Positions 217-16,967 of a stretch of 21,226 nucleotides of DNA are shown piece after piece. The notes beneath the pieces were generated by a model, which searched no databases, had not been told where the DNA came from, and worked only from the letters and a program-made list of their open reading frames with translations. The stretch spans positions 1 through 21,226 of IMG/VR virus record IMGVR_UViG_3300032326_000906, one strand, 5' to 3'. The stretch's first letter is position 1, and every line of letters begins with the position of its first letter. A program made the translations under genes and the position numbers. The DNA comes from a virus.

Positions 217-1134
217 AATTATGGTTTTGATGGTAAAAGATTTTATATTGACTATGAAAGTTGCAAACGGCCAGTGGGCAATATGCGAGAAGAATCGGAC
301 AGGCGTGCAGTTGAAGTTTATGAAACATCCGAAACAAAAAAACTGATATTAAGTTTAAGCAGCGGAATAGACAGTCAAAGTGTGTTGCATAGTTTCCATC
401 AACAAGGGATTCCGTTAGAAACTGTGTTCATGCATACACCTGGATATAACGACAACGAATTTTTAAACATACAACGTATTGATGCCAAGTACGGCGTTAA
501 GACGCAAGTAATTGAAATAGATCCCGTAGCTATTAAACAAGAATTAGAAGAAGAAGCTGCTGTTACCGGCATTCATGTTTATAGTCTCCTGTTCAAAAGG
601 TTCCTGCAACAAGTGCCCGAGGATTATGATTTTATACAAATGACGCACGATCCCTATGTGCATATTAGTCCGAGAAAAATATTCTATTGGTTTATGGGGT
701 ACAACAGTCCCGAGATACTTAGAGACAGAGCATTTAAAATGGTAGAACGTACAGGTAGAACTATATTCTACGGAGACACTCCAGAATTTACTTTAAGTAT
801 TATCGATGACAGTATTTTTAGTGCAGCATTATATTCTGCTAGATATTTTTCTGAAAACGGATTAACCAAACCAGGTGTAAAATTAGACAGTCTTGATCGA
901 TGGGACTACTATGTTAAGCCGTTGCTTTATGGAAAGTATTGGAAGGATGAGTTAATTTACTTCCCTAAGTATGTGGGATTTGAAAAATTAGATTGGCTTT
1001 CTGGCCCGTCGGGAATTAGAAATCACGGCGTAACAATCCCCTATCATGATTTTATCAAATTTTTGAAACAACCACCGGGTACTGTAAAACGCTTTTATGA
1101 AAACGTAGATCCTACTCCGCCGAAGAAAGAGTAA
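214..1134 (+). CDS. PP-loop ATPase / adenine nucleotide alpha-hydrolase-like protein
   Basis: The 306-residue protein carries SLSSGIDS at residues 47-54, the PP-loop (SGGxDS) signature of the ATP-pyrophosphatase superfamily (asparagine synthetase B, GMP synthetase, PAPS reductase, TilS). These enzymes adenylate a carbonyl, carboxylate or sulfate group before amide or thio transfer. A strand with FMHT follows, as expected for the Rossmann-like core. No N-terminal glutaminase domain precedes it, so the nitrogen or sulfur donor is not evident. I chose ATG 214 over GTG 202 because GAGAG lies just upstream. TTTAAATA at 182-189 is a one-mismatch late octamer. The 3' end overlaps the convergent Rieske gene by 23 nt. 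Superfamily is secure; substrate is unknown. Confidence 0.8.
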   Translation: MNYGFDGKRFYIDYESCKRPVGNMREESDRRAVEVYETSETKKLILSLSSGIDSQSVLHSFHQQGIPLETVFMHTPGYNDNEFLNIQRIDAKYGVKTQVIEIDPVAIKQELEEEAAVTGIHVYSLLFKRFLQQVPEDYDFIQMTHDPYVHISPRKIFYWFMGYNSPEILRDRAFKMVERTGRTIFYGDTPEFTLSIIDDSIFSAALYSARYFSENGLTKPGVKLDSLDRWDYYVKPLLYGKYWKDELIYFPKYVGFEKLDWLSGPSGIRNHGVTIPYHDFIKFLKQPPGTVKRFYENVDPTPPKKE

Positions 1135-1987
1135 GAAATTTTCGATAGTGCTGTTTGCTTTCTTCGAGGTTGTGCTGTGCAACTTCAGCAATCAAACTCA
1201 CTTGCTCTTTGTCTTGACTCCAAGCTAGTTCCCAGACTTCGTTATTAAGTTCCCAATTGAGATCACTATATCGTGTATCTCTATATTTAAAAACTTCTAC
1301 GTTAGAACTGTAGTCGTCAAATTTTGTTGCCACAGTAATGAAAACTGCACCAGGTTGCCACTCTATCATAGTTCCAGGATAAACAGCTAACCAAGCTGCG
1401 CCATATTTTCTATCAGCATCCTCTGGAATTAACGTTGCAGCAAAATCCTCATTAACAAAGTTATTGGCTACTAGCTGTAGTGATCTATTTTCTTTATAGA
1501 TCCAATCAACTGACGTTATATTAGATAATCCTATTTGTTCATAAACTCCTCTATGCACGATAGAGATATGATCAACATCTAAAAAGATATCCATTATAGT
1601 TGTTACTGTGCCCTGAACTCGATCTGTTCGCTTCTCTACTAATTCGAGATTTGAAAAATCTACATCAAGTTCTTTAAATTCTGCAGGAACTGTGAATATA
1701 AGATTGTTCCAAACATGCACATCTTCATTAGGTAGAGCACTATTGTTTTTACAACTAGCTCTACCAGATCCAATGGGCTTGCCTTCTAGATCAAAACTCC
1801 ATCCATGGTAAGGACAAACTCTGCTGCCTTTGCCCTTTTCTTTAGAGATCAAGCTGTTTTGATGCGGGCATACATTTGAAATCAAAGTATATTCTTGATC
1901 GACATTGACCAAAACTTTTTTGTTTCTTAATTGTGTAATTGGAAGATATTGATTGTTTTTAATATCGTCAGTGTGTGCTAAGAACAT
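1112..1987 (-). CDS. Rieske-type non-haem iron oxygenase (alpha-subunit-like)
   Basis: The 291-residue protein has a Rieske [2Fe-2S] domain with CPH at residues 40-42 and CPYHGW from 58, so the ligands are C40, H42, C58 and H61. A catalytic domain follows: DVDHISIVH puts the putative bridging D137 ahead of iron ligands H140 and H145, and a later WSQD supplies the probable carboxylate ligand. It is shorter than typical aromatic-ring dioxygenase alpha subunits (about 400-450 aa) and nearer to short oxygenases/demethylases. No ferredoxin or reductase gene is nearby, so electrons would have to come from host or unlinked phage partners. It is the last gene of a minus-strand run, 1 nt after the desaturase, which suggests coordinated work on a common, perhaps lipid, substrate. 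Substrate unknown. Confidence 0.88.
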   Translation of the reverse strand: MFLAHTDDIKNNQYLPITQLRNKKVLVNVDQEYTLISNVCPHQNSLISKEKGKGSRVCPYHGWSFDLEGKPIGSGRASCKNNSALPNEDVHVWNNLIFTVPAEFKELDVDFSNLELVEKRTDRVQGTVTTIMDIFLDVDHISIVHRGVYEQIGLSNITSVDWIYKENRSLQLVANNFVNEDFAATLIPEDADRKYGAAWLAVYPGTMIEWQPGAVFITVATKFDDYSSNVEVFKYRDTRYSDLNWELNNEVWELAWSQDKEQVSLIAEVAQHNLEESKQHYRKFLTLSSAE

Positions 1988-1988
1988 A

Positions 1989-2768
1989 TTATTTTTGTTT
2001 CGCTAATCCCAGTAGCATTAGAAAATTAATAACATACTTGCCTGGATCAAACTGATACCATTTGCGACCAATTCTATAGTCGCCTGGACGCAAGTGATGA
2101 TTGTTGTGCCAACCTTCTCCGAATGTTAGATAACTCCACCACCATACGTTGTGGCTTTGATCGTAGTTGCTATCAACTTCTTTACGACCAAACAATGCAG
2201 TATGATCAATCCAGTTACTAAAACGACTTGCAATGGTATTCATAAACACTGGAATTAGATATAGGTAAATGGCAATCATAGGATCTATATACAGTAATAG
2301 AGCCAATGTTGCTAACACTACAGCAATATAATACTCGTGTAAAAATCTATGAACAGGATCATTAATGATATCTCTAACAACCCATTTGTTAAATGTCCCG
2401 CTATAGTCTCCTATGATTGCACCAATTGGTCCCAGTGTAACTGGACTATGAGGGTCGCCGGGCTTGTCGGCATATTTGTGATGCAGTCTATGAACAAAGA
2501 CCCAACCTGCACTACTGCCTGTACAACCTATATTTGCAAAGTAACTAAACAAATGTTCTAAAGGTTTCCACAGTTTATATGATCTGTGAGTGAGCAATCG
2601 ATGAAACGTTACTGTGATTCCTAAACAGGTTATTAAAAAATATCCAAATATTGCCAACAACCAGTATTCTACACCGGCTGGGTTAAACAATGCCCAAATG
2701 GTAACCACAGTAGCAATTACCTGCATCAGAATAAAAAACCATTCTTTTGGATACAAATATTTCTTCAT
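1989..2768 (-). CDS. Membrane fatty-acid desaturase (first of two paralogues)
   Basis: The 259-residue protein has the three histidine boxes of acyl-lipid/acyl-CoA delta-9-type desaturases: HRLLTH at 56-61, HRLHH at 93-97 and WHNNHH near 220-225. These ligate the diiron centre that inserts a double bond into an acyl chain. Hydrophobic stretches at about 10-55 and 145-180 fit four transmembrane helices. Length is close to compact bacterial and cyanobacterial enzymes (about 260-290 aa). It would act in the membrane and needs ferredoxin or an equivalent donor, which is not encoded here. The ATG overlaps the stop of the upstream paralogue (ATGA), which implies translational coupling. Double-bond position cannot be read from sequence. 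Confidence 0.9.
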   Translation of the reverse strand: MKKYLYPKEWFFILMQVIATVVTIWALFNPAGVEYWLLAIFGYFLITCLGITVTFHRLLTHRSYKLWKPLEHLFSYFANIGCTGSSAGWVFVHRLHHKYADKPGDPHSPVTLGPIGAIIGDYSGTFNKWVVRDIINDPVHRFLHEYYIAVVLATLALLLYIDPMIAIYLYLIPVFMNTIASRFSNWIDHTALFGRKEVDSNYDQSHNVWWWSYLTFGEGWHNNHHLRPGDYRIGRKWYQFDPGKYVINFLMLLGLAKQK

Positions 2769-3523
2769 TTTTTCACAATTCCAATTATACTGCTAGCAGG
2801 ATCAATCTCCCACCATTTTTCTTTTGTTGTAGTGCCGGCTGGGTTGCCATGATGATTATTGTGCCAAGCATCGCCCATTATCAACGGCCACAAAAATATA
2901 TTGTTTGTACTCGAATCTTTAGTTTCATAATTTCTGTAGCCAAAAGTATGTGCAAAGTAATTGAAACTGTTCTGACTGAGTTGTACTGCAAATACAGGCA
3001 ACACCCATGTAAAATATATCATGTCAATGCCGAACAGTCCTACAAATGCTAACCATGCAAGTATAATGGCAAAGTAATAGTCATGAATAAAGATTTGATC
3101 CTTGGTCATTAGATCTTTAACTAGAAACACATTCATCTTACCACTCTTTGACTCTATATGTTTAAATCCAAAAAGTTTAAATCCAATGGTATTAGGGCTG
3201 TGAGGATCTTTATCGCTGTCACTGTATGCATGATGCAGCCTATGAACATATACCCATCCTAGCGGACTTGCTCTACCAGCAAGACATGCAAACAATGTAA
3301 AAATCCATTTAATTACAGGATGTATAAATTCAAAACTTTTATGAGTGTAATATCTATGCAGTGTAATTCCAACGCCTAATATGCTATAGATATAGAAAAA
3401 TAATATAGCAATTAGCACCTGCGCCAAAGTAAAGTCAAAGTAGAATAGCCCTAAAATAGATAGAGCACCTGAGATCATTTGAACGTTGTTTATTGTGTTT
3501 GCAGTTGCTGAGAATGGTTTCAT
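2765..3523 (-). CDS. Membrane fatty-acid desaturase (second of two paralogues)
   Basis: The 252-residue protein has the same desaturase pattern as its neighbour: HRYYTH, then HRLHHAYSD, then WHNNHH near the C-terminus, with hydrophobic spans between. Shared blocks such as GWVYVHRLHH and GDPHSP/KDPHSP-like segments show that the two genes are paralogues, but they are clearly diverged, so they probably differ in chain or position specificity or form a heteromer. A perfect late octamer lies 5 nt before the ATG and predicts a leaderless transcript. There is no Shine-Dalgarno sequence. It is the first gene of the desaturase-desaturase-Rieske part of the run. Confidence 0.9.
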   Translation of the reverse strand: MKPFSATANTINNVQMISGALSILGLFYFDFTLAQVLIAILFFYIYSILGVGITLHRYYTHKSFEFIHPVIKWIFTLFACLAGRASPLGWVYVHRLHHAYSDSDKDPHSPNTIGFKLFGFKHIESKSGKMNVFLVKDLMTKDQIFIHDYYFAIILAWLAFVGLFGIDMIYFTWVLPVFAVQLSQNSFNYFAHTFGYRNYETKDSSTNNIFLWPLIMGDAWHNNHHGNPAGTTTKEKWWEIDPASSIIGIVKK

Positions 3524-3528
3524 AGCAA

Positions 3529-3536: not shown

Positions 3537-3554
3537 TGCTATGACAAGTGTATT

Positions 3555-4124
3555 CTACAAATCTGTCAAGTCAAAAACATCGGAAAATTCTTGTCGTAAC
3601 GATGTTGAGTATAAAAACCGAATACTTAATACTAATCTTGAATTAGAATTTTGACTTTCGATACTATGTACTTCGTCAGTTCGAACAAATGTTGGACAAT
3701 CAATTGTGGTAAAATCTGTCTTTATTAGTTGATCAATTGAAATAATTTTGCTAGCAGTGACATTGTTAAACCCGTATGGGCCATCTATAAGATTATCGTC
3801 ATCGCATTTCCACCAAGACATTGTGGTATTTTGATATCCTGCAATGGGTAAATTAAGTCCCAACGGAGACCTATTATTTTTTAATCCATCAATATGGGGT
3901 GGCAATGAACCATTGGGGGGAGTAAGATAAAATCGACAAAGACGAACAGGTAATTTTTTACGACTTTCTAAAAAATTATATAGCGTCGGAGAATTTATTT
4001 GAAACCATGTATATGGAACATCCCAATATCTTACATTATTCTTGACAAAATCAACAGTTGAGTTTTCTAACTCTAGCCTAATTTTGTCATAATCGGGAAT
4101 GTTAATTTTTTTGTAATATAACAC
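3555..4124 (-). CDS. 2OG-Fe(II) oxygenase, aspartyl/asparaginyl-hydroxylase-like
   Basis: The 189-residue protein has the double-stranded beta-helix signature: PPHIDG gives H77 and D79, and EVHSIESQNSNSR gives distal H153 and R163 for the 2OG carboxylate. These enzymes couple 2OG decarboxylation to hydroxylation or related oxidations. The start is GTG at 4124, one base after the TAA of the upstream GNAT gene (TAACGTG), so the two are translationally coupled. There is a 31 nt gap to the next gene, where a separate late promoter lies. Protein, sugar, nucleotide and lipid are all possible substrates. Confidence 0.8.
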   Translation of the reverse strand: MLYYKKINIPDYDKIRLELENSTVDFVKNNVRYWDVPYTWFQINSPTLYNFLESRKKLPVRLCRFYLTPPNGSLPPHIDGLKNNRSPLGLNLPIAGYQNTTMSWWKCDDDNLIDGPYGFNNVTASKIISIDQLIKTDFTTIDCPTFVRTDEVHSIESQNSNSRLVLSIRFLYSTSLRQEFSDVFDLTDL

Positions 4125-4125
4125 G

Positions 4126-4800
4126 TTACGTTAGCTTTTGTAACACCGGATTCTTTTCTTCGTGGGATCTAATGGTCTCCCAGTCGAATTCATAAGTTTC
4201 GTCAATCTTATGGCAAATGGCCCATTGTGTTAGCCCTTTAATTTCGATAGGAAACGGAACTTCAAATACGCCGTTATGAAAAAACATTTTATCTGTTCTA
4301 TTCTTTTGATGCCCAAGCCCGGTGCGCTTAATGACATTTAACAATCCACGATTGTACTTATTAACAGTGAGCATTATCATTTTGTAGTTGTTTCTAGTTG
4401 CCCATGCTAATTGTGCAGGCCATAAAAGTTCACCTAATAAATGATTGCCACGGTAATCCTTATTGACAAACGTTCTTACTGAACCTATTGCAATGTCATC
4501 ACAAAATTCAGATTTGTGAATACCAGAACCTGCAATGATTTTATCGTCTTTTTCTAACAGATAATACTGGCCGTTTCCTTTGTAAAAGCGTTTTTTGTTC
4601 CACAAAATATTGGCCAACGTTTCTTCGCGTTCCATCCAATTAAATGCACCCATGTTATAAGCAGCAGGGCTACCTTTGCTAGGGTTAGGATGGGATTCTA
4701 AAGACACTTCTTCGCACCAAGGAACTATTTTATTCTTGATGTAGTGCCCAGGAGCATTTAGTTTAGTAAAAGGAATCAGTTTGTATTCTTTATTTTCCAT
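4126..4800 (-). CDS. GNAT-like N-acyltransferase
   Basis: The 224-residue protein has a GNAT-type core: strand DDKIIAGSGI (about 85-94), strand IGSVRTFVN, then DYRGNHLLGELLWPA, which carries the RxxG acetyl-CoA pyrophosphate loop at about 117-120, then a helix and the strand YKMIMLTVN. It would transfer an acyl group from acyl-CoA to an amine. I chose ATG 4800 rather than the longer upstream frame because the extension would run across the divergent promoters and into the opposite gene, and because a promoter-like octamer sits 5 nt upstream. It resembles the GNAT-like product at 7730-8362 in layout. It heads the minus-strand lipid/oxygenase run. Confidence 0.7.
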   Translation of the reverse strand: MENKEYKLIPFTKLNAPGHYIKNKIVPWCEEVSLESHPNPSKGSPAAYNMGAFNWMEREETLANILWNKKRFYKGNGQYYLLEKDDKIIAGSGIHKSEFCDDIAIGSVRTFVNKDYRGNHLLGELLWPAQLAWATRNNYKMIMLTVNKYNRGLLNVIKRTGLGHQKNRTDKMFFHNGVFEVPFPIEIKGLTQWAICHKIDETYEFDWETIRSHEEKNPVLQKLT

Positions 4801-4805
4801 ACAAC

Positions 4806-4813
4806 TATATATC
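4806..4813 (-). promoter_or_regulatory. Late-promoter-like octamer, one mismatch (GATATATA)
   Basis: The minus strand reads GATATATA, one mismatch from NATAAATA, with exactly 5 nt between it and the ATG at 4800. The position matches the perfect copies elsewhere in the window, which supports it despite the mismatch. It lies back to back with the plus-strand octamer at 4816-4823, 2 nt apart. Confidence 0.45.
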
Positions 4814-4815
4814 AA

Positions 4816-4823
4816 TATAAATA
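4816..4823 (+). promoter_or_regulatory. Late promoter octamer TATAAATA before ATG 4829
   Basis: The exact T4 consensus TATAAATA is followed by 5 nt and then ATG 4829. Predicted +1 is the A of that ATG. The alternative ATG at 4823 overlaps the octamer and would lie upstream of +1, so this site also decides the start codon. Confidence 0.7.
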
Positions 4824-4828
4824 TGAGC

Positions 4829-5344
4829 ATGGAAATTATTAAAGCTCTAGAGGTCTTAGACCCAAAAACTGCCAAGAAATTAATCACAGAAGTTCTGGAG
4901 GCTTATGAAAAGCATCAAGACGGAACAGGACAGATTATACTGCAAACCAATCGACAAGGTGTGGAAGATTGGCACACCGGTGTTGGGCAAGTTGAAGCCC
5001 TTGAAGACAAAACTGAAGATGACTTTGTGCATATACAGCCTAGTTTGCAAGGCTCACTGATCGAGCAGTACATTAAAAAGTACAAAGGATTTAGAGCTAG
5101 AATAATGGCCATGAACCCTAAATCAAGTTATACAGTACATAAGGATTTTACGCCTCGAGTACATATTCCTATTGTTACTAATCAAAACGCTTGGATGGTC
5201 TGGCCAAATCATCAGCGTTGTTTTCAACTAAAAGCAGGTGCAGTTTATTATACAGACACTACTAAACATCACACTGCACTAAACGGCTCAATGGATGAAG
5301 TTAGAATACACATTGTTATGTGCATCGAGAACCCACCAGCATAA
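4829..5344 (+). CDS. 2OG-Fe(II) oxygenase, AspH-like
   Basis: The 171-residue protein has a compact cupin-like oxygenase core: YTVHKD gives H104 and D106, TKHHTALNG supplies distal H147 or H148, and VRIHIV supplies R159. The spacing and the R-I-H after the distal histidine resemble the aspartyl/asparaginyl beta-hydroxylase family. The start is assigned at ATG 4829 from the upstream late octamer; ATG 4823 would add two residues. It is a single plus-strand gene among minus-strand genes and overlaps the convergent methyltransferase-like gene by 29 nt. A protein side chain is a plausible substrate, by family only. Confidence 0.78.
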   Translation: MEIIKALEVLDPKTAKKLITEVLEAYEKHQDGTGQIILQTNRQGVEDWHTGVGQVEALEDKTEDDFVHIQPSLQGSLIEQYIKKYKGFRARIMAMNPKSSYTVHKDFTPRVHIPIVTNQNAWMVWPNHQRCFQLKAGAVYYTDTTKHHTALNGSMDEVRIHIVMCIENPPA

Positions 5345-5966
5345 ACCTAGTGTATTGCTCAAGGTCTAACCCGCCAGCATATTCTAAATCCATCGGGTAC
5401 TTTTCAATCATTTCGTCTAGATTTTCACAACAATTGACATGATCGTATCCTGGCAAGTTGTTGCTGTGTAACACAACTTTAGTTCCTGCTGGAATTCTAT
5501 CGTACCAACTGTTATCTGCAATGTGTTCGCAACTGGTATTGATAATCAAATCAAACTTAGTTAGGTCTATATCATTGACATCCAATGACAGATGTTTAAA
5601 TTCTTTATTGCGCCTATTAAGGTGCGTAGCAATAGTAGTTAATCTCTCGTCCGGGTCTGTTTCAGTAATAAACTTAAATCCCATCTTGGTTAAACATAAA
5701 CTTGTAAAACCTATCCACGAGCCAATAACAAGCACTTGACTGTTTTTATCAACGTCTTTTAGTTTGCTCATCATCCATGCTTTGCTTTGCATTTGTTTTA
5801 ATCTAAATGCATCTCTTATTTCTTCAAACGTAACTGAGTTAAATGCAGGCTCATGATAGAGCGCATTCATAACCCACGGTATTTGACTGCTGACAAATCG
5901 GATATCTATATCCTGGCCTGTTAAGTGTTTATGTTCAATCATGTTTAAAATGTTTCTCGGTTCCAT
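5316..5966 (-). CDS. Class I SAM-dependent methyltransferase-like protein
   Basis: The 216-residue protein carries a Rossmann-type segment VLVIGSWIGFTSL (about 78-90), with GSWIG in place of the usual GxGxG SAM loop, then FITETDPDER, where the acidic residues sit at the end of strand beta-2 as in SAM-binding folds. DLIINTSCEHI resembles motif IV (post beta-4). The N-terminal 60 residues look helical and are unassigned. ATG 5966 lies within the end of the upstream DUF6356-like gene (32 nt overlap), so the two are probably coupled. Phage-encoded small methyltransferases of this kind are common; the substrate is unknown. Confidence 0.6.
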   Translation of the reverse strand: MEPRNILNMIEHKHLTGQDIDIRFVSSQIPWVMNALYHEPAFNSVTFEEIRDAFRLKQMQSKAWMMSKLKDVDKNSQVLVIGSWIGFTSLCLTKMGFKFITETDPDERLTTIATHLNRRNKEFKHLSLDVNDIDLTKFDLIINTSCEHIADNSWYDRIPAGTKVVLHSNNLPGYDHVNCCENLDEMIEKYPMDLEYAGGLDLEQYTRFMLVGSRCT

Positions 5967-6138
5967 CTACAATTTTTTTAGCTAATATGTAGGGTGTAAA
6001 TTCAAACCAGAATGGAAAAATACTATGTATTACTCCTGTGATAAACACCAGTAATGCTAGAAAGTTAAAGTAACTTGCATACACTAAATGTTTAATATAA
6101 GTTGTCTTAGCTTCTCTAAGATGTTGGGTTAGTTTCAA
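5935..6138 (-). CDS. Small membrane protein, DUF6356-like
   Basis: The 67-residue protein has one clear hydrophobic segment at about 22-45 (ASYFNFLALLVFITGVIHSI). The flanking pattern of Y..H...A before the helix, and IH...PF.F..T after it, matches my memory of the DUF6356 family, found in alphaproteobacteria and some phages. The start is TTG at 6138, supported by GGAG 7 nt upstream; no in-frame ATG exists. It overlaps the glycosyltransferase-like gene by 23 nt and the methyltransferase-like gene by 32 nt, so all three are likely translated together. Function unknown; probably inner-membrane. Confidence 0.65.
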   Translation of the reverse strand: MKLTQHLREAKTTYIKHLVYASYFNFLALLVFITGVIHSIFPFWFEFTPYILAKKIVDGTEKHFKHD

Positions 6139-6796
6139 TGAAATACTCCAGTAGCCAATGATAGTTGTTAATTTTATGAAGTTCTTCTAAGTTGTTATCG
6201 TGTAACTCAACGAAGTTCTTTGCGTCTAAATACCCTTTATAGCACCATTGGGCATTAAGGGCATTGCTGTCTTTACAAGACTTCCATTGTTCGATGTAAG
6301 TGTCTATATTTTTAGCATTTGGCCTTGATCTAAAAATAACACTCATAAGTTTAACACAGTGTCTAAAAGAAGTTTTCCATGCATCATACGGACTGCTATT
6401 ATACCTAGTTTCAGAAAACGGATAATCGAGTATTTGCTTTCTCGTAGTAGCATTAAGAGTAAAGTCTCCCTTGCTCATATCTCTATTAACTATCATTCCT
6501 TTCTTCCATAATTTAACTCCGCCTAGCAAAGTTAAATTATTGTGTATAGGATCAATAGCCTTGAACATCAATAGATCACTCTTGATGGGATCTTTATATT
6601 CTAACTTTTCAGTTAGCCAATTGTCGCCATCTACAGTCCAAAAATAGTCAGTATGGGATACTTCCTCACACATTAAATGGACTCGATCAATTCCTTTTAT
6701 ACCGTGAAGTCGAACAGCATCTGGATGTAACTCCAGCACTCTGTTCCAATTTTCTTCACAGTTATCTTCTTTAAAACTTATAAAAAATACATCCAC
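6116..6796 (-). CDS. Glycosyltransferase-like phage protein (DGD motif)
   Basis: The 226-residue protein begins with a short beta strand MDVFFIS, followed by NWNRVLELHPDAVRLHGIKG, and has YFWTVDGDNWL at about 51-61. The aspartates after a hydrophobic strand resemble the DxD metal/nucleotide-sugar site of GT-A glycosyltransferases. I recognise this layout from marine phages and giant viruses, where it is annotated as hypothetical or glycosyltransferase-like. GTG at 6796 is the only good start, and no Shine-Dalgarno sequence is visible. It would transfer a sugar in the cytoplasm, perhaps to a surface glycan or virion protein. It leads a three-gene overlapping unit. Confidence 0.55.
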   Translation of the reverse strand: MDVFFISFKEDNCEENWNRVLELHPDAVRLHGIKGIDRVHLMCEEVSHTDYFWTVDGDNWLTEKLEYKDPIKSDLLMFKAIDPIHNNLTLLGGVKLWKKGMIVNRDMSKGDFTLNATTRKQILDYPFSETRYNSSPYDAWKTSFRHCVKLMSVIFRSRPNAKNIDTYIEQWKSCKDSNALNAQWCYKGYLDAKNFVELHDNNLEELHKINNYHWLLEYFIETNPTS

Positions 6797-6819: not shown

Positions 6820-7749
6820 ATGTTATTTAATCGCTTCTTAGACATTGCCAAAAAATATCCAACTGCTCTTGCTATCAATAATTTAACCTATTTGCAGTTG
6901 TTACAGTTGGTAAACGATAGACCTTACAATCCAGTTTGCGAGCAATCGGACTGGACTATTATATTGGACTTCTTAAAGGCTGCAAGCATTAACAAGTCTT
7001 TAACTATACTTCCTAAATTTAAAAGAGAAGGTATTGTTATTCCCGATGCAAAAGAAGAATTTGGAATATTTCTGTTTAGTAGTGGCAGCACCGGAACACG
7101 TAAAAATATATGGATACCTGAAACAATGCTGTTAGCCAATGCAGACAACGCTATCGCATCTCAGGGGCTAACACACCAAGACAAAATACTTACTGTCTGT
7201 AGTCTTAATCATACTGGCGGACTCAATGCACAAACTGTGCCTGGATTATTATGTGGAGCACATAATACAATAGAAGCATTTAATGCATTTAATTTTTTAA
7301 AGTTACTAGAAAAACACGAAATTACAATTAGTCATTTGGTACCAGTAATGATTGATGCATTAATCAAAGTAGATTCATCTGCAAATTTATCTGCCTTGCG
7401 GTTGATGGTTGCTGGCAGCGATTGTGTTTATCCGCATCATATATCCTACTGGACTAATAAAGGTGCTGAGTTTATCGCTAATTACGGAATGACTGAAGCT
7501 GGTCCTATTATTATCAATCACAAATACGTACCAGGAGAAGATTTAAGTTATCACAATGAAGGTGTTATTCTTGGCGATCAATACTGGTGTGATTATAAAG
7601 TAGTCGATGGAGAATTGTATCTTAAAGGCGACTGCATCAACGTAGATGATTGGCTTGCAACTGGGGATTGCGTCGAGCAAAAAGGCTCATGGATGTTTTA
7701 TAAAGGACGCATCAGCGCCGGTTGTAAAATTATACCGAAACAATACTAA
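6820..7749 (+). CDS. Truncated ANL-superfamily adenylate-forming (acyl-AMP/acyl-CoA) ligase
   Basis: The 309-residue protein contains the ANL core motifs in order: A3 P-loop SSGSTGTRK (87-95), A5 NYGMTEAGP (221-229), A7 TGD (281-283), and A8-like GRISAGCKI starting at 297. It stops right after A8, so the mobile C-terminal domain of about 100-130 residues, with the A10 catalytic lysine, is missing; the N-terminus is also short (families usually 450-550 aa). The plus strand beyond 7749 shows no continuation in another frame, because the convergent gene occupies it. It may retain partial adenylation, use a separate C-terminal partner, or bind acyl-AMP. MenE- and acyl-CoA-synthetase-like relatives activate carboxylic acids, which would suit the desaturase and GNAT neighbours. 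Confidence 0.8.
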   Translation: MLFNRFLDIAKKYPTALAINNLTYLQLLQLVNDRPYNPVCEQSDWTIILDFLKAASINKSLTILPKFKREGIVIPDAKEEFGIFLFSSGSTGTRKNIWIPETMLLANADNAIASQGLTHQDKILTVCSLNHTGGLNAQTVPGLLCGAHNTIEAFNAFNFLKLLEKHEITISHLVPVMIDALIKVDSSANLSALRLMVAGSDCVYPHHISYWTNKGAEFIANYGMTEAGPIIINHKYVPGEDLSYHNEGVILGDQYWCDYKVVDGELYLKGDCINVDDWLATGDCVEQKGSWMFYKGRISAGCKIIPKQY

Positions 7750-9959: not shown

Positions 9960-10623
9960 GGGTTTGTTTCCATTCTTTGTAATCAAATTTACGATATTCT
10001 TTGTTATTAATTGGTTTAGCCAAATAGGTATTTCTAATTCGCTGAACAGTTGGGACTATACCCTCTTTATTCAGTGCTTCTTTAACAGCCAATACTCTTT
10101 CTGAATATGCTTCTTCCATCATTAGCATAACATTTACCTTTCCTTGTTTATTGCAAGTTAAGATAATGTCCATTGCTTCAGCTTCATTCCAATGTTCAAA
10201 GTGTGTAGAAAAACTTATACTAGCATACTTGGCTGCTTCTAAATAATATTCTTTAGTTTGAGAAATGTTTGTTAAAAAACTTACATTGAGGTAATCAAGT
10301 GTATTCTTTTCTTCATGCAAGTATTTTAAAAATTCTAAAAAGTCTGGATTAGCGGTTGGTTCGCCACCTGTCAAAATAACTCGCATTTTTCTAAAGCCTT
10401 TGGCAAGAGCAGCGTTCTTTGAGTTTGTCCAATATTGTTTTAATGTTTCTAAATTGTAGTGAGGACTAGTCTTATCTCTATTGGATTTGTCACAATAGGT
10501 GCAAACATAGTTACAGTATTTGCCAACCATCCAGTTAAGAGTAAAATCCCAAGGTTGCCGACTATCAACTGCGGGCCTAATAGATTTAATATCTTCAATT
10601 TTAATAGTAGATAGTATGCTCAT
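9952..10623 (-). CDS. Radical SAM protein (catalytic half)
   Basis: The 223-residue protein has the CxxxCxxC cluster motif (C37, C41, C44, in KYCNYVCTYCDK) that binds the [4Fe-4S] cluster for reductive cleavage of SAM, and GGEPT at 86-90 for SAM binding. It covers most of a partial TIM barrel and stops at TAA 9952-9954, just where the SPASM-like frame begins. Radical SAM/SPASM enzymes act on peptides, sugars and other small substrates. It begins with an ATGA overlap from the preceding 2OG gene. A flavodoxin or ferredoxin donor is not in the window. Confidence 0.88.
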   Translation of the reverse strand: MSILSTIKIEDIKSIRPAVDSRQPWDFTLNWMVGKYCNYVCTYCDKSNRDKTSPHYNLETLKQYWTNSKNAALAKGFRKMRVILTGGEPTANPDFLEFLKYLHEEKNTLDYLNVSFLTNISQTKEYYLEAAKYASISFSTHFEHWNEAEAMDIILTCNKQGKVNVMLMMEEAYSERVLAVKEALNKEGIVPTVQRIRNTYLAKPINNKEYRKFDYKEWKQTHG

Positions 10624-11264
10624 AATTTAATTAATTTTCCTTGTTTATCTAATTCAACCAGTTCTTCATATGAGTAATCATTTATTTTAAATCTTAGATA
10701 AACTCTTTCATGATCTAATTTACTTACACCGTGTATTTGTTGTTGATTAATTATTGTAGGATGAATCGTGCTGTAACTATGTTTGAACACAATGTCAGCA
10801 TCACTAAGTGTTCGTCTGTAATCAGTTGCAGCCTGCGGAATAACACCTTCTCTAGAATAAAAGTTAATAGGAGCACCTCCATCATCTGGTATGATTGGAA
10901 TCATTATTGTGCATTTAACTTGATCAGTGTGCGGTAAAAATTCAAAGTTAGGACGGAAACAATTGATATCTACTAGACCCGGTTTAATCTTAATATTAAA
11001 TTGATCAATAATTTTCTTAACAGCAGGATGAGAAGTTACATCATATCCTTGTTTATCAGTGTCAAGTACATGTACATTGTCAGGCTTAATTTGACTTTGC
11101 AATGTTTTATCTGGATCGGTTTCTTTAGTTTTATTAGTAGAGCCGCCAGCAAGATACAATCCTGTGGGTCGTCTATAATGTTTTACTTCTTGATACATCG
11201 ATTGTAGCTCTAATATATCATAACTAACACCCAGTATTGTATAGGCAAAATCTTCAAGCTTCAT
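10620..11264 (-). CDS. 2OG-Fe(II) oxygenase (paralogue of the 8926-9570 product)
   Basis: With ATG 11264 as start the protein is 214 residues, with LPHTD (H112, D114), IIPDDGGAPINFYSR, distal H178 in QIHGV and R187. Length and spacing equal those of the 8926-9570 product. I rejected the longer frame because its first codon at 11282 is TTG, whereas ATG 11264 has AGAG about 7 nt upstream. It overlaps the end of the preceding gene by 11 nt and the radical SAM start by 4 nt, so it is deeply embedded in the operon. Confidence 0.82.
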   Translation of the reverse strand: MKLEDFAYTILGVSYDILELQSMYQEVKHYRRPTGLYLAGGSTNKTKETDPDKTLQSQIKPDNVHVLDTDKQGYDVTSHPAVKKIIDQFNIKIKPGLVDINCFRPNFEFLPHTDQVKCTIMIPIIPDDGGAPINFYSREGVIPQAATDYRRTLSDADIVFKHSYSTIHPTIINQQQIHGVSKLDHERVYLRFKINDYSYEELVELDKQGKLIKL

Positions 11265-12240
11265 TGTCAAACTCTGGTTCAAATATTTTAATGTTATTAA
11301 ACTTATAACCGTTTTTATAATTCATACTAAAGACTTGTCCATTAACAAAGCCTAATTTTTCACAAACATGATCTTGAAATTCGCCATCAATTCTAATAGT
11401 AAAATGATTTTCTTCTTCTGGATCTACTCCGTGGCAATCGCTTTCATTAAACATGTATGCTTTACTTGATGTATAAATCTTTTCTTTAGTTACTTCGTCG
11501 TACATAAATCCCTTACGACTATTCGTAGTTAATTGTATATTGACAAAGTGGGCGCTGTGTCCAAAACTGTTGGCAGGATAATCTCTATGCGTAGGAACAG
11601 CATGTCCTATCTTATTTTGGTACACTAACACACGACCAATATGCTTAAACAAATATGTTTCCATTTCGTTTATCCATGCCTTAGTTAAAGGTACTGGCCC
11701 GGGTACTCTACCAGTAACTCCATGCACTTGTTGATTTCTGTAGTCGCCTTGCCTGTCAGGATCTTGCCATGCTGCACCAGGATTGTGTTTTCCTGTCCAG
11801 TATCTAGAATGTTCAGTTTGCTTTTTTAATATCAATGCACATTCCCATATAGGCTTTCCAAGATTAAAAGTTACCCATGCATCTAATTCTTGAGAAGATT
11901 TTAAACTGTTTCTAACATCTTCAGGTACATACTTTTCTGCAAAGTATTGGTAGTATGTCATAAAATGATAGTTGTTGAGTTCTTTTGGCAACATACAAGT
12001 TCCGCCACCAGGTCGGTGTCCCGAAGCATCTAATTGCGTCTGTAACTCAGCAATAATATCAGCAGTATTTTCTGGAAACTTAACAAACTCAGTAAGATCC
12101 AGCCAGGGCTTGCTTTCTGGGCCGCAACCTAGTATTCCACATTCATACCATTTGAACATGTGTTTTTTTATTCCCTGATTATTAAATTCTTTTTGTATCC
12201 ATATACCGGGAATGTTGTGTGTTGAGTTGTAAGTTGTCAT
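11254..12240 (-). CDS. Large 2OG-Fe(II) oxygenase-like protein
   Basis: The 328-residue protein has a C-terminal oxygenase core with THRD (H218, D220), a strand HFVNIQL, DCHGVD (distal H270) and HFTIRIDG (R283). The N-terminal 180 residues have no motif I recognise and include LGCGPES, HRPGGG, and a His/Trp-rich stretch around 140-175, perhaps a substrate-recognition domain. It is the largest 2OG-type protein in the window. A late octamer ends 6 nt before the ATG and itself overlaps the 3' end of the upstream tRNA-like gene. It heads the overlapping six-gene oxygenase/radical SAM unit. Confidence 0.72.
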   Translation of the reverse strand: MTTYNSTHNIPGIWIQKEFNNQGIKKHMFKWYECGILGCGPESKPWLDLTEFVKFPENTADIIAELQTQLDASGHRPGGGTCMLPKELNNYHFMTYYQYFAEKYVPEDVRNSLKSSQELDAWVTFNLGKPIWECALILKKQTEHSRYWTGKHNPGAAWQDPDRQGDYRNQQVHGVTGRVPGPVPLTKAWINEMETYLFKHIGRVLVYQNKIGHAVPTHRDYPANSFGHSAHFVNIQLTTNSRKGFMYDEVTKEKIYTSSKAYMFNESDCHGVDPEEENHFTIRIDGEFQDHVCEKLGFVNGQVFSMNYKNGYKFNNIKIFEPEFDNEA

Positions 12241-13227: not shown

Positions 13228-13809
13228 ATGGCCACCATCGATCACTACATTGAGTTTGATTTAGACTACGACAAAGAGGGACTGTTAAAGTTATTTAACG
13301 ATCATATTGACGAATTCCCTGCTCTTAGAAACTTAACTTCTCCGTTTAGATCTGTAAGCGAAGATATCAGCTTGTCTGAACATGACTGCGTTAAACATGT
13401 ATTTGACGAATTATTTGTAATACCAAACAGTACAAAATTTTACAGTTTAACAGCATTAGAAAAAAGAACTATTCCACACACTAACCCCGGCTGTAATGGA
13501 AATATAATTATTCCGTTATGTGGGACATTATACGTAGATATCTTCTCATATGATGCTCCTATTGTTGATGGACGTCCTACACTGCATCCTATGCCTAGAG
13601 AACGAGTAAATTTTACAGACAAAGACGAAATGGCATTACAGCAGTCTTTTTTAGAAACTGTTGTTGTTAAAAAACCAATTGTTGTAAATGGATTAAAAGT
13701 GCATTCCTTTATGCCTGCAATGGCTGATAAGCCTACATTCTTAGCTATAAGAATACCTTCCAATATTGCATGGTCAGAAATGGTGAGTTTTGTACAAACT
13801 AAATTATAA
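13228..13809 (+). CDS. 2OG-Fe(II) oxygenase-like protein with HxN instead of HxD
   Basis: The 193-residue protein has the fold landmarks of the window's 2OG enzymes, IPHTN (H84, N86), the strand GNIIIPL, distal H159 in LKVHSF and R175 in LAIRIP, but the metal-binding aspartate is asparagine (codon AAC). In 2OG halogenases this position is Ala or Gly and opens a halide site; Asn could weaken metal binding or mean a non-catalytic scaffold. The start has AAAGGA about 10 nt upstream. It is the first gene of the plus-strand unit with the nitroreductase fusion. Confidence 0.65.
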   Translation: MATIDHYIEFDLDYDKEGLLKLFNDHIDEFPALRNLTSPFRSVSEDISLSEHDCVKHVFDELFVIPNSTKFYSLTALEKRTIPHTNPGCNGNIIIPLCGTLYVDIFSYDAPIVDGRPTLHPMPRERVNFTDKDEMALQQSFLETVVVKKPIVVNGLKVHSFMPAMADKPTFLAIRIPSNIAWSEMVSFVQTKL

Positions 13810-13819
13810 TCTTTCTTTG

Positions 13820-13827: not shown

Positions 13828-13850
13828 TGTAGTACTTCAAGGAGAACTCC

Positions 13851-14996
13851 GTGTTAAAAGATGTTTTAGAAACTAGATTTACTGCCAAATGGTGGGATGC
13901 AAAACCAGTTGAATCTGATAAGTTGCAATATGTTCTAGATTGTGCCTACTTGGCACCGTCTAAACAGGGAAGGCACGATCATACTATCCTTGTAGTAACT
14001 GATAGTCCCGAAGGACTCGCTCTTAAAGATTGGCTTTATTACGAAGATACTTATTGCATTAACGGTATCCGTGGTCTTGAAGGTCCAGGGTTTAAAAGAT
14101 TTAACGGACAAGTTAGAGCACCGGTAGTGTTGTTATGGATAGCTGATACATTTCCAAACGGCAAAAATTCTAAGAATGAAATAGAAAATCAACGAGTACG
14201 TGATGATTCCATCGTTAGTGCAACTATTGCAATGTGTGCTGCCGAAGAGGTAGGGCTTGCTTCTGGATTCAACGGCTGTATTGGAAATTTTGAAGTAGCA
14301 AAGCATCTTGGTTTAACTGATAAAATTGTAACTATGGCAATTGGTATAGGATATGCAAGTCCAGATAGATCAAGAATCATTAGAGAAACGTATCAAGGCG
14401 AAGCTAGACCTATTGCATATCCTAATGATAATCCCAAAGCATTTCCAAATGCATATCAATTGTTAATGCAAAACAAAGAATTCATTGTAGAAGAATCTTG
14501 TGCATATTTGGCGTGGCAAGTTAATACAAATAAAACTTACAAAGGCTATCAATATAGCGAAGAAAAATGTAAAAGAGATTTAAGTTATGTCATAGATGCG
14601 ATGCTGCATGACATACAACATGATACTACTGCTGCATGTCAAACAATGATATCTGAATATTGGGCAAGGGGAGTTCCGCAAGTACGTCGAGTAGTAGAAC
14701 CATTAGTTTATAGTTTCATTAGAGGTCTAATGAGAGACTATATTATGAAAAATATTGCGTATCCTAATCCTAAACAATTGATTGCTGCCCAATATATAAA
14801 TTCAGCATTGATTCCAGAAGCTACCTCGGCAGCTAAAATTAATGGATTTGTGGTATTAATAGCCAACGGTATTAGAACAGGCAATAGGAAATTAACAGCC
14901 ATCGGTAATGATTACTCAAACGTAGCTCCGAACATTGTATCAGCACCTAATAGAAAAAGTAAACCTCCTAAGGAAGTAATGATAAATTACATATAA
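13851..14996 (+). CDS. Nitroreductase-like flavoprotein fused to a phage virion-type helical domain
   Basis: Residues 1 to about 195 resemble FMN nitroreductases: TRFTAKWWDAKPV (8-20) recalls the R(R/S)(V/T)R.F FMN-phosphate region, LAPSKQG (34-40) the conserved AP-S segment, and CAAEEVGLASGF (129-140) the late helix. Residues about 200-381 differ: NKEFIVEESCAYL then EKCKRDLSYVIDAMLHD (238-254) match a helical domain that I know from T4-like cyanophage and pelagiphage virion proteins (typically CxRDVGYIIDAxxYDL). The GTG start follows a strong AAGGAG. The fusion suggests a redox enzyme carried on, or docked to, the particle. FMN binding and virion location are inferences; the fusion is direct from one uninterrupted frame. 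Confidence 0.75.
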   Translation: MLKDVLETRFTAKWWDAKPVESDKLQYVLDCAYLAPSKQGRHDHTILVVTDSPEGLALKDWLYYEDTYCINGIRGLEGPGFKRFNGQVRAPVVLLWIADTFPNGKNSKNEIENQRVRDDSIVSATIAMCAAEEVGLASGFNGCIGNFEVAKHLGLTDKIVTMAIGIGYASPDRSRIIRETYQGEARPIAYPNDNPKAFPNAYQLLMQNKEFIVEESCAYLAWQVNTNKTYKGYQYSEEKCKRDLSYVIDAMLHDIQHDTTAACQTMISEYWARGVPQVRRVVEPLVYSFIRGLMRDYIMKNIAYPNPKQLIAAQYINSALIPEATSAAKINGFVVLIANGIRTGNRKLTAIGNDYSNVAPNIVSAPNRKSKPPKEVMINYI

Positions 14997-15007
14997 TAGG
15001 AGATTTT

Positions 15008-15724
15008 ATGTCTGAATCAAATAATCAGATCGTCCCACCGGGCGTTAGTGGAAGGGCGCCTAAGTTCGATGCACGCCTAGTCAATTTAGAAACTGTGGCA
15101 AATGAATTGGCATTGCTTAACCTTGGCGACTTTGAGCCGCTTAATATTAAAATCAATTGTGACAAGTTTATGAAAGAACTTGCACCTTTTGAAAATGATT
15201 GGGTTGATTATCTGCCCCGTACTGATCGTATCAATAGTAGAAAAGGATTAACCTTGACTTCATTGCCTGGTAAGACTCACAAAGATAATCCCAGTTTAGC
15301 TCAAGCGAGTCACGAAGCAGGCCGACGATTAAGCGAAAATGAATTTAATCAAAAGACTGATGTCTATAATGCCTGTACCAGCTTGCATCCACTGTTAGAT
15401 GAGTTTATGCCACTTGGTCGTACATTTTTAATTAGAAGTGACATGGGTGGATATTTTGTTCCGCATCGTGATCATCCAAGTATGCCTCGTGAAAGTTTTA
15501 GGATTGCGGTATTTTTAAATAACTGTGCACCACTACAGTACGACTGGTTAATAGATACTGATCGTAAATTACCAATTGAAATGGGACGAGCGTATTACAT
15601 TAATACACGTAAAACTCATAGAACAATCAGTTGGGTCAATAACAGCATCCATCTTATTCTAAATATTCCATTTAGTTCTGTTAATGTAGGCAAAGTTCTT
15701 GCCCACTTACAGCATCCACATTAA
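15008..15724 (+). CDS. 2OG-Fe(II) oxygenase-like, phage type, lacking the canonical Arg
   Basis: The 238-residue protein has VPHRD (H153, D155), a strand FRIAVFLNNC, and distal H204 in TRKTHRTISW, followed by NNSIHLILNIP. The usual 2OG-binding Arg about ten residues after the distal His is absent (I214/H215 there); R205 or R201 might substitute. Similar proteins with the same N-terminal extension are widespread in marine T4-like phages. AGGAG lies 7 nt before ATG 15008. It ends on a TTAA shared with the stop of the convergent gene, with 4 nt of overlap. It sits 11 nt after the nitroreductase fusion. Confidence 0.72.
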   Translation: MSESNNQIVPPGVSGRAPKFDARLVNLETVANELALLNLGDFEPLNIKINCDKFMKELAPFENDWVDYLPRTDRINSRKGLTLTSLPGKTHKDNPSLAQASHEAGRRLSENEFNQKTDVYNACTSLHPLLDEFMPLGRTFLIRSDMGGYFVPHRDHPSMPRESFRIAVFLNNCAPLQYDWLIDTDRKLPIEMGRAYYINTRKTHRTISWVNNSIHLILNIPFSSVNVGKVLAHLQHPH

Positions 15725-16230
15725 CTAACCAAGTGCCACGGGTCTTCTTGTAATCTTACACTGATTGCCAACCGTGGCATAACTGAATAATTTCTAACTG
15801 AATGCGGTACGTCGGTATTAAACAATACCGGCTTAACTAAAGTAAATTCTGTTATCTTCCTGCAATTATCTCTAGTGAGACCTATATAGGGTCTATTACT
15901 TGAAGTGTATTGTATATTAGCAGGATCATAATGAGTAGATTCCCAAAATTCAGTAACTGAATTTTCGCAGTTTCTTAACGAAAAATTAATAGCTAATTTA
16001 TTGTTATTATTAAATGCACGATAATCAGTATGAATATTTCCTACAGCTCGCCCTAATGACTGTATCAATACAATTTCATATACATCAAGTCCCATGAATT
16101 TAGTTATGCCTAAATCTAGTCCTTGATAGAAATGTATATTGTTAGTTAGTTTATCTATATCAGGCAACGTTCGGTTGCGTATCTCAGATACTTCGTCTTC
16201 AGGAAGTTCAATATGCTGCCAAATAAACAT
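15721..16230 (-). CDS. 2OG-Fe(II) oxygenase
   Basis: The 169-residue protein has NIHTD (H67, D69), a strand LAINFSL, then FNTDVPHSVRN with distal H143, and R153 in MPRLAISVRL, ten residues on. It is a complete, compact oxygenase core. The ATG shares its first base with the upstream stop (TAATG), so it is coupled to the gene before it. Substrate unknown. Confidence 0.82.
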   Translation of the reverse strand: MFIWQHIELPEDEVSEIRNRTLPDIDKLTNNIHFYQGLDLGITKFMGLDVYEIVLIQSLGRAVGNIHTDYRAFNNNNKLAINFSLRNCENSVTEFWESTHYDPANIQYTSSNRPYIGLTRDNCRKITEFTLVKPVLFNTDVPHSVRNYSVMPRLAISVRLQEDPWHLVS

Positions 16231-16967
16231 TAACTAGCTCTGGGCAATGCTGTGAATATACTAATACCTAATTTAGATTTAATTTTTTGAGCAACAAAAT
16301 CACTTGCACAGTGAAGTCTTACTGCATCAAATATAATAGCACTTCCCGGTTTCCAAGTTTCTGCTTGTTTAAAACTCAATCCCTTAAGCCAATTAGGTTT
16401 AATATGTGTTAGATAATTGTGATAGATTTCTGCAGGAATTTCTGCTGTAGATAAGTTTTGTACATCCTCATAACTATATACAGGTTCGTTATAAAATTGT
16501 TCAACTTTAACTTGAGCACCATTAAAAAATTTACTAGGGCCTTTTAGATAAAACTGATCAAAGAAACACAGTTTAGGATATCCAGTATTCTCTTCTTGAT
16601 ATTCAATTCTCAGCGGCAAAGTTATTGCTTTATAAGTTATAGGACTTAGAAAGTCGTCGTCATTGTGTATAATATGGGGAGTTTGTACATTAAAGTACAT
16701 TGATGTAAAAATACCGCACTCGCCGATCTTTTCCTTGATACGATCAAAGATTGCTTTCATTACAGGATCTTGTACTAATAATTTAGAAATGTCTTTAGTA
16801 ACAGGCCCTGTATTTTTATAAATTTTATCTCCTGTATTTTCATACAAGTCGATAAGATATTGTATCTCTTCCTGTGTAATAAATTCTTCAATTACATAAG
16901 GATCAGACATGTTAGAAACGATTAGATCATTTTCTTCTTTAGTTCGAGTGATTGTTCTTTTTGCCAT
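16230..16967 (-). CDS. 2OG-Fe(II) oxygenase-like protein
   Basis: The 245-residue protein has IIHND (H101, D103), then YKAITLPLR, and a distal RLHCASD (H219), followed by KIKSKLGISIF where Lys (230 or 232) stands near the usual Arg position. The long insert between the two ligand motifs (about 115 residues) resembles the larger phage oxygenases. The longer frame to 16988 begins with TTG; ATG 16967 is preferred because a late octamer ends exactly 5 nt before it. It is the first gene of a two-gene unit. Confidence 0.7.
   Translation of the reverse strand: MAKRTITRTKEENDLIVSNMSDPYVIEEFITQEEIQYLIDLYENTGDKIYKNTGPVTKDISKLLVQDPVMKAIFDRIKEKIGECGIFTSMYFNVQTPHIIHNDDDFLSPITYKAITLPLRIEYQEENTGYPKLCFFDQFYLKGPSKFFNGAQVKVEQFYNEPVYSYEDVQNLSTAEIPAEIYHNYLTHIKPNWLKGLSFKQAETWKPGSAIIFDAVRLHCASDFVAQKIKSKLGISIFTALPRAS

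Follow-up and report, generated by a model that had tools for sequence, protein, structure and literature searches.

2OG-Fe(II) oxygenases are recurrent accessory genes in aquatic T4-like phages, and the publications consulted report no tested function for them. T4-like cyanophages carry 1 to 5 2OG genes each (PMC3037559, PMC9602691), and cyanophage S-SCSM1 (MK867354, Kyanoviridae) has 24 2OG-Fe(II) oxygenase genes. The initial annotation of the DNA described here, which took single 2OG genes as the phage norm, therefore understated these numbers, and 2OG gene density alone is not new because high counts in T4-like phages have already been published. Acyl-CoA/fatty-acid desaturases have been described as auxiliary metabolic genes in Lake Baikal phages (PMC7678222) and in Arctic brine phages (PMC7300359).

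The whole stretch of DNA that was analyzed (the window) is a 21-kb piece of a large aquatic phage genome and comprises part of an accessory-gene island. Approximately nine Fe/2OG hydroxylase genes, one Rieske oxygenase gene, and two fatty-acid desaturase genes lie within 16 kb (Table 1). Related contigs of 235 and 345 kb contain a T4-type Gp23 major capsid gene, which was not found in smaller fragments. A tRNA-like element is located in the middle of the block. Pfam searches of the window revealed no scaffold-forming enzyme (PKS, NRPS, or RiPP/peptide precursor) and, among the genes searched, no cognate Rieske reductase or ferredoxin, which the host could supply. There are no tail genes in the window.

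Table 1. Genes of the window, with coordinates, strand, and supporting matches or residues
Coordinates	Strand	Assignment	Residues, matches, or context
202..1134	+	PP-loop ATPase, adenine nucleotide alpha-hydrolase type (QueC-like)	
1112..1987	-	Rieske oxygenase alpha subunit	Pfam 6.5e-13
1989..2768	-	Membrane diiron fatty-acid desaturase	HRLLTH, HRLHH, HNNHH; 5e-18
2765..3523	-	Second membrane diiron desaturase, 33% identical paralog	7e-18
3555..4124	-	2OG-Fe(II) oxygenase, AspH-type	H77, D79, H153, R163
4126..4887	-	GNAT acyltransferase	Pfam 9e-5; recurs adjoining desaturases
4829..5344	+	2OG-Fe(II) oxygenase 4781, Asp_Arg_Hydrox family, Cpz10 homolog	PDB 7V4F, E 5e-25
5316..5966	-	Methyltransferase-like protein	Syntenic
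6116..6796	-	Conserved protein without assigned function	Syntenic
6820..7749	+	Compact AMP-binding (adenylating) enzyme	Pfam 5e-23
7730..8362	-	Conserved protein, GNAT-like by eye only	Syntenic
8394..8933	-	2OG-Fe(II) oxygenase	H75, D77, H144, R154
8926..9570	-	2OG-Fe(II) oxygenase	H112, D114, H179, R188
9567..9959	-	C-terminal part of split radical SAM enzyme, SPASM-like by position	
9952..10623	-	Radical SAM core part of split enzyme	Pfam 6e-11
10620..11282	-	2OG-Fe(II) oxygenase, 36% paralog of 8926	H118, D120, H184, R193
11254..12240	-	Probable 2OG-Fe(II) oxygenase	Conserved H218, D220, H270, R283
13228..13809	+	Degenerate/doubtful 2OG-like protein	H84, H159 kept, Asp replaced
13851..14996	+	Nitroreductase with inserted ~110-aa domain	Pfam 2e-12
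15008..15724	+	2OG-Fe(II) oxygenase, family here seen only in phages	H153, D155, H204; Ser213, no canonical Arg
15721..16230	-	2OG-Fe(II) oxygenase	H67, D69, H143, R153
16230..16988	-	2OG-Fe(II) oxygenase, phytanoyl-CoA hydroxylase/SnoN/AndA fold	H108, D110, H226, K239

Oxygenase candidates and partner enzymes

All of the open reading frames listed in the initial annotation were found in place. Genes are designated by left coordinate, except for 4781 (w4781), the gene at 4829..5344. The ten proteins annotated as 2OG-like sorted into eight supported by homology or fold, one probable (11254), and one degenerate or doubtful (13228). Seven of the eight were linked by profiles to an Asp/Arg-hydroxylase anchor: profiles made from relatives joined 3555, 4781, 8394, 8926, 10620, 15721, and 15008 in one superfamily, with hhalign values of 95 to 100% along the chain, and none of the ten candidates scored above 4% with any of eight non-2OG control families. 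Only 4781 passed the Pfam cutoff (Asp_Arg_Hydrox, PF05118; 1.5e-6); the other nine fell below it. In an alignment of 22 sequences, H75, D77, and H144 were invariant and R154 was nearly so. PF05118 matched 4 of these 22 sequences at an E value of ≤0.01, and the alignment profile retrieved the 2OG beta-hydroxylase Cpz10 from the PDB (1.8e-7), the weaker profile matches being free-proline hydroxylases.

A double-stranded beta-helix fold is predicted for 4781 from its homology to 7V4F and for the other six from their profile links. The eighth supported candidate, 16230, had no sequence link to the other candidates (hhalign, ≤19%). Foldseek searches with its AlphaFold model (pLDDT 87.5) returned 2OG dioxygenases throughout the top 50 PDB matches (best E value, 5.8e-7), and the model predicts the same fold; the matches are small-molecule dioxygenases. 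Thus, the share of candidates with this predicted fold did not drop below half. With hhalign values of up to 67% and the conserved residues listed in Table 1, 11254 is probably a 2OG-Fe(II) oxygenase. For 13228 this assignment is doubtful: two His residues align, but the Asp position is N or F in homologs (HTN or HIF), and the AlphaFold model (pLDDT 32) has no usable fold. Searches of 50,697 phage records with 8926 and 11254 (tblastn) gave no match, and viral scans with 8926 and with the A1 alignment returned one relative only.

The metal triad H-x-D...H is kept in nine of the ten families, with 13228 as the exception. The further suggestion that most candidates keep HxD...H...R applies to seven families, in which the position downstream of the second His where a basic 2OG-binding residue is expected is Arg; this position is Lys239 in 16230 and Ser213 in 15008. 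Within the seven profile-linked families the full motif is conserved, save for the usual Arg in 15008.

The Rieske oxygenase and both diiron desaturases were correctly recognized, as judged from Pfam matches and retained metal ligands. The Rieske protein has an intact cluster motif (C40-x-H42...C58-x2-H61) and mononuclear iron motif (D137-x2-H140-x4-H145), and the desaturases retain three His boxes and score above the PF00487 cutoff. The radical SAM assignment was confirmed, but the annotated pair is one enzyme split into a core and a C-terminal subunit at a ATGGCTAA stop/start overlap (9952/9567). The nitroreductase fusion was also confirmed; the inserted domain resembles tail-fiber/virion PHROGs, and a viral scan with this nitroreductase (13851) returned no relatives. 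The adenylating enzyme (6820) ends shortly past a GRIxxxxK motif and is without the usual C-terminal subdomain.

Recurrence of the gene set in related phages

Co-occurrence was counted from a viral scan with 15008; an earlier desaturase-based locus set was dropped because it was biased toward desaturases. With 290 relatives in viral contigs and none found among approximately 85,000 cellular genomes, the 15008 family is well suited for probing phage-specific chemistry. Matches to 'Acinetobacter phage MD-2021a' were set aside because they look like bacterial contigs, with benzoate and anthranilate dioxygenase annotations. The 36 nonredundant phage loci with 15008 form an unbiased sample, in which the number of 2OG genes within 5 kb had a median of four and reached seven at most; this distance included 16230 in 26 loci and 4781 in 18. 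The HxD/E...H pattern was present in 123 of the 129 2OG genes around 15008 loci. A nitroreductase gene adjoins 15008 on the same strand, at most ~25 bp away, in approximately 20 loci. Most of these nitroreductases lack the tail-fiber-like domain, which is present in some relatives, in either order.

Other recurring partners are the GNAT gene, the two desaturases, the Rieske oxygenase, the methyltransferase-like gene, and, in the closest relatives, the adenylating enzyme. Gene-by-gene synteny with the window is near complete in contigs L005, L006, and L018, from which six window genes are absent, and in L005 and L006 a 62% identical counterpart of the PP-loop ATPase adjoins the Rieske gene. Syntenic contig G004 also has genes resembling those for a tryptophan halogenase and a ketosynthase, together with two or more additional desaturases. 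In two other contigs, the islands include an acyl carrier protein; among 27 related contigs, a ketosynthase occurs in 3 and a carrier protein in 6. Loci differ in gene content, order, and orientation, and both strands are used. Collagen-like repeats were found in 11 of 30 contigs, no more commonly with the island than without it, and none lay closer than 10 kb to 15008; hydroxylation of collagen-like tail fibers was rejected on these grounds.

In the large contigs, 2OG genes are confined to one island each. For example, 12 of the 13 matches in the 235-kb contig fall inside 36.7 kb. Clustering P values ranged from <1e-5 to 0.02 in five contigs, and chance does not explain the clustering. There were not many related phages with the same number of genes scattered without linkage. 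The recurrence of the island as a linked gene set in many related phages suggests a phage-carried chemical-modification system. The conserved set is compact, its partners are fixed (15008, 16230, nitroreductase, and 4781), and it offers a testable unit of few genes.

Possible functions of the island

The island collects Asp/Arg-hydroxylase-type Fe(II)/2OG hydroxylases and a phytanoyl-CoA-hydroxylase-like member. We tentatively propose, with somewhat less than even confidence, that its enzymes oxidize host- or phage-made amino-acid and acyl small molecules, a substrate class that we infer, in a few short infection-time pathways. In this scheme, activation and transfer of an acyl or aminoacyl part would fall to the adenylating enzyme and acyltransferases, and its oxidation to the desaturases, the Rieske enzyme, and the 2OG enzymes; the nitroreductase-15008 pair might perform a single oxidation step. 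The product could be a free molecule, or it could belong to the membrane or decorate a surface. Cpz10, the best-characterized relative of 4781, hydroxylates an aminoacyl-uridine, and the free-proline hydroxylase matches, the fold matches of 16230, the halogenase-like and ketosynthase-like genes of G004, and the carrier protein in other islands are also consistent with small-molecule chemistry. However, ketosynthase and carrier protein are rare in relatives, the window lacks PKS, NRPS, and peptide precursor genes, and the tail-fiber-like domain on some nitroreductases points to virions. In addition to Cpz10, relatives of 4781 include a SAR11 chromosomal gene; the cellular relatives kept are mostly SAR11 chromosomal genes outside biosynthetic clusters, and the one inspected has hemB/rpiB/glyA as neighbors. 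Of the dedicated oxidative tailoring or biosynthetic system suggested initially, the linked, recurrent set with one island per genome stands, and the chemistry is plausible but unproven. It is doubtful that large T4-like phages carry a mobile multienzyme pathway that, in a natural-product-like biosynthesis during infection, produces or remodels one particular oxygenated lipid or small molecule; such a pathway would comprise the 2OG hydroxylases, nitroreductase, adenylating enzyme, acyltransferases, desaturases, and Rieske enzyme, with halogenase and ketosynthase in relatives.

Variable non-core gene content is what a cargo hot spot would predict, and it is possible, although on balance unlikely, that unrelated genes with separate host targets gather at a recombination-prone site and only small pairs share a pathway. 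Variable locus order and orientation on both strands, the tRNA-like element, the six genes missing from the L005/L006/L018 block, and the interspersed PP-loop ATPase, radical SAM, and Bug-type receptor genes would fit such a site, but the partners of 15008 (16230 in 26 of 36 loci and the abutting nitroreductase) recur too regularly. Modification of phage tail fibers or cell-surface glycans, altering adsorption or blocking superinfection, is quite improbable. Four consecutive 2OG genes of S-SCSM1 and the island of pelagiphage Mosig adjoin tail-fiber genes, and nitroreductase fusions of either order carry a domain matching tail-fiber and virion PHROGs. However, most 15008-adjacent nitroreductases lack that domain, the window has no tail genes, and collagen-like repeats, which hydroxylases naturally target, are neither enriched in island contigs nor near 15008.

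Phage DNA hypermodification can involve 2OG enzymes, and QueC-like PP-loop genes are nearby. Yet no candidate had a Pfam Tet_JBP match and no glycosyl- or nucleotide-modifying partner was recognized, which makes DNA hypermodification of the TET/JBP kind very unlikely. There is similarly little likelihood that the hydroxylases chiefly consume 2-oxoglutarate, or that they signal nitrogen and oxygen status or buffer it, as hypothesized for T4-like cyanophages (PMC3037559); a single uncoupled enzyme would suffice for this. That the families are diverse and conserve distinct sequences, and that they co-occur with other oxidoreductases, argues for specific substrates.

Comparison with described systems

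We found no published report of a conserved AspH-type set with nitroreductase, GNAT, desaturases, Rieske oxygenase, and adenylating enzyme. S-SCSM1, a T4-like aquatic phage with a large genome, resembles the phage studied here in its many divergent, locally dense 2OG genes (up to 7 in 9.1 kb, beside tail-fiber genes). However, its 2OG genes are spread over 220 kb in several groups, some lying among replication genes, and are of the PF13640/13661/13759/05721 types according to its paper, in which a desaturase goes unmentioned; the window family profiles match only 5 of the 24. Pelagiphage Mosig EXVC030M (MT647606) has a contiguous accessory island that shares Asp_Arg_Hydrox, fatty-acid desaturase, nitroreductase, MoaA-like, GNAT, and methyltransferase genes with the window, but it has fewer 2OG genes (four A8 matches) and its own carbamoyltransferase, aminotransferases, and peroxiredoxin. 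Cpz10 (PDB 7V4F) is homologous to 4781 over its full length, with the same H-D-H-R residues, but functions in a bacterial nucleoside-antibiotic cluster, whereas the phage gene has different neighbors. In contrast to the desaturases of the Baikal and Arctic phages, the window pair is adjacent, often accompanied by GNAT, and situated inside a 2OG-rich island.

Identity of the putative 2OG oxygenases

The window, a complete IMG/VR record of 21,226 bases (GC content, 37%), covers part of a phage genome. All of the open reading frames named in the initial annotation are present, and Pfam confirmed the identity of the Rieske oxygenase, two desaturases, AMP-binding enzyme, GNAT protein, radical SAM enzyme, and nitroreductase. 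However, the radical SAM "pair" is one enzyme divided over two coupled genes (9567-10623) with a stop/start overlap (ATGGCTAA); homologues in related loci L056, L078, and L083 are undivided single proteins. The AMP-binding enzyme (6820-7749) is unusually short, retains the SSGSTGTRK, NYGMTE, and ATGD motifs, and appears to lack the C-terminal subdomain.

Of the ten 2OG candidates, only 4781 was supported by Pfam (Asp_Arg_Hydrox, 1.5e-6; this gene spans 4829-5344, and the others are named by left coordinate). Profile and fold tests were needed because the other nine had no meaningful match in Pfam or PHROGs. Families conservatively built from viral-contig relatives were compared all against all with hhalign, which joined 3555, 8394, 8926, 10620, 15721, 4781, and 15008 at 95-100%; for eight non-2OG control families, no score with any candidate exceeded 4%. 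The H-x-D...H...R pattern is conserved inside families, with the arginine replaced by Lys239 in 16230 and Ser213 in 15008. Across a 22-sequence alignment (~20% identity), no change occurs at H75, D77, or H144, and R154 is almost always kept. The profile of this alignment matched Cpz10 in the PDB at 1.8e-7, with weak matches to L-proline cis-4-hydroxylase and procollagen lysyl hydroxylase. Searched alone, 4781 gave a full-length match to Cpz10 (5e-25), and the two proteins share the H, D, H, and R residues given in the Cpz10 paper (His115, Asp117, His160, and Arg170 in Cpz10; PMC9814697).

No sequence link between 16230 and the other families was found with hhalign, but its predicted model (pLDDT, 87.5) matches 2OG dioxygenases, including SptF, SnoN, AndA, EctD, and phytanoyl-CoA hydroxylase. 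Gene 11254 (hhalign up to 67%; H218, D220, H270, and R283) is a probable 2OG enzyme. The assignment of 13228 (37-60%) is doubtful: H84 and H159 fall on the two histidines, but the metal-ligand aspartate is replaced by Asn in the window protein and Phe in homologues, and structure prediction failed. Therefore, eight of the ten enzymes claimed are supported, one is probable, and one is degenerate. With the Rieske oxygenase and two desaturases included, the total is 11 to 13 non-heme-iron oxygenases, in agreement with the "up to 13" first proposed.

Recurrence and linkage of the gene set

Three related loci (L005, L006, and L018) contain nearly the whole block: the kinase, 16230, an 8394-like 2OG gene, 15008, the nitroreductase fusion, 13228, 7730, 6820, 6116, 5935, 5316, 4781, 4126, both desaturases, the PP-loop ATPase, the Rieske gene, and 202. 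Genes 8926, 9567, 9952, 10620, 11254, and 12390 are missing from all three. A tRNA-like element, probably with anticodon CAU as judged by eye, borders the set missing from L005; neither ARAGORN nor a whole-window Rfam scan detected it. The 259-aa product of 12390-13169 had no relative at blastp E 1e-3 among the loci fetched at that point; its N-terminal start looks SGNH hydrolase-like, by eye only. In the first locus set, PP-loop (QueC/asparagine-synthase-like) ATPases of cluster cl1 were present in 43 loci and those of cl3 in 22; a locus often held several copies, and some copies adjoined Rieske genes (window copy, 202-1134). More distant loci (L025, L039-L043, L073, L077, and L082) have 15008 and 16230 near GNAT and desaturase genes.

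Because the first loci had been fetched via desaturases, the test was repeated with 15008 as bait. From 290 viral-contig relatives, 80 were kept, of which 54 were nonredundant and 36 had ≥4 kb on each side. Within 5 kb of 15008 in these 36 loci were 16230 (26 loci), 4781 (18), desaturase 1989 (11), a nitroreductase homologue (10), and GNAT gene 4126 (5). Therefore, the 2OG genes and the nitroreductase form the core of the set, with the desaturase/GNAT module as a neighbor that is common but not always present. There was a median of four and a maximum of seven 2OG genes per ~10.7 kb, and 123 of 129 retained HxD/E...H.

The Asp/Arg-hydroxylase-type (AspH-type) genes of large related contigs form one island each: 12 of 13 inside 36.7 kb of 235 kb (G008), 4 of 5 inside 8.8 kb of 345 kb (G018), 7 of 8 inside 18 kb of 146 kb (G010), 9 of 10 inside 30 kb of 112 kb (G007), and 4 of 4 inside 22 kb of 115 kb (G004). 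Random-placement p values ranged from <1e-5 to 0.02 but are indicative only because the contigs were picked for carrying an island gene. Thus, these contigs do not show the pattern that would have refuted the initial proposal, an equal number of such genes scattered without linkage. At least the 235- and 345-kb contigs are T4-like because they contain Gp23 capsid genes.

A nonexhaustive pattern scan of ~85,000 cellular genomes found no relative of the 15008 family. For 4781, the 80 best relatives from cellular genomes are nearly all chromosomal genes of SAR11. These Asp_Arg_Hydrox-type genes include L230:7629-8267 and occur in most of L206-L282; in L230, the one locus inspected, the flanking genes are presumably hemB and rpiB/glyA. 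The "Acinetobacter phage MD-2021a" records (CAKLQH020000002.1, CAKLQF020000006.1, and others of this kind) contain benzoate/anthranilate dioxygenases and appear to be bacterial contigs labeled phage by mistake.

Possible roles of the island

The substrates of the best characterized hydroxylase relatives are amino acids, an aminoacyl nucleoside, and small polycyclic or acyl compounds. Neighboring genes encode an adenylating enzyme, acyltransferases, desaturases, a methyltransferase-like protein, and the nitroreductase. The island of syntenic contig G004 extends to halogenase-like and ketosynthase-like genes and further desaturases, and carrier proteins lie inside the islands of G007 and G011. 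Because of these substrates, neighbors, and island contents, we tentatively favor a role in the oxidative tailoring of small metabolites of the amino-acid or acyl type, which the island enzymes might perform in a few short pathways. Although the genes themselves are identified, conserved, and linked, it is their substrate, co-expression, and step order that we infer. That the genes are cargo without a common pathway is somewhat unlikely.

Modification of tail fibers or surface glycans is less probable still. It is supported by the tail-fiber-like domain in some nitroreductase fusions, whereas its collagen-hydroxylation form was tested and not supported. In nitroreductase genes at equivalent positions, the tail-fiber-like domain of ~110 aa is inserted ahead of the C-terminal tail in the window, L108, and L109 and is N-terminal in L005, L006, L107, and L077. 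Most other nitroreductase homologues lack it.

Coordinates of selected features in the window and related loci
Feature	Location	Strand	Evidence
tRNA-like element	window 12256-12323	-	Rfam tRNA, 32.7 bits (cut-off 29)
Nitroreductase with tail-fiber-like domain	window 13851-14996		
Nitroreductase with tail-fiber-like domain	L005:3155-4273		
Nitroreductase with tail-fiber-like domain	L006:3185-4330		
Nitroreductase with tail-fiber-like domain	L108:8816-9991		
Tryptophan-halogenase-like gene	L193:7164-8324 (contig G004)		Pfam, 6.6e-35
Ketosynthase-like gene	L194:278-1429 (contig G004)		

Comparison with known 2OG-rich phages

Genomes holding 1 to 5 2OG genes have been reported for cyanophages (PMC3037559), and S-SCSM1 carries 24 (PMC9602691). 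When mapped, the S-SCSM1 genes reached 7 in 9.1 kb, adjoining tail-fiber genes; in the window, a 9.1-kb stretch holds 8 and a 13.4-kb stretch holds 10. 2OG density by itself is already known. No description of a conserved AspH-type set with partners was found in the searchable, open-access part of the literature. Only 5 of the 24 S-SCSM1 genes match any window family profile, and none matches A8, a profile that finds AspH-type genes, so the two expansions comprise largely different families. The island is real and recurrent and a good target for experiments; it represents a variation on 2OG-rich accessory regions already known and not a category of its own.
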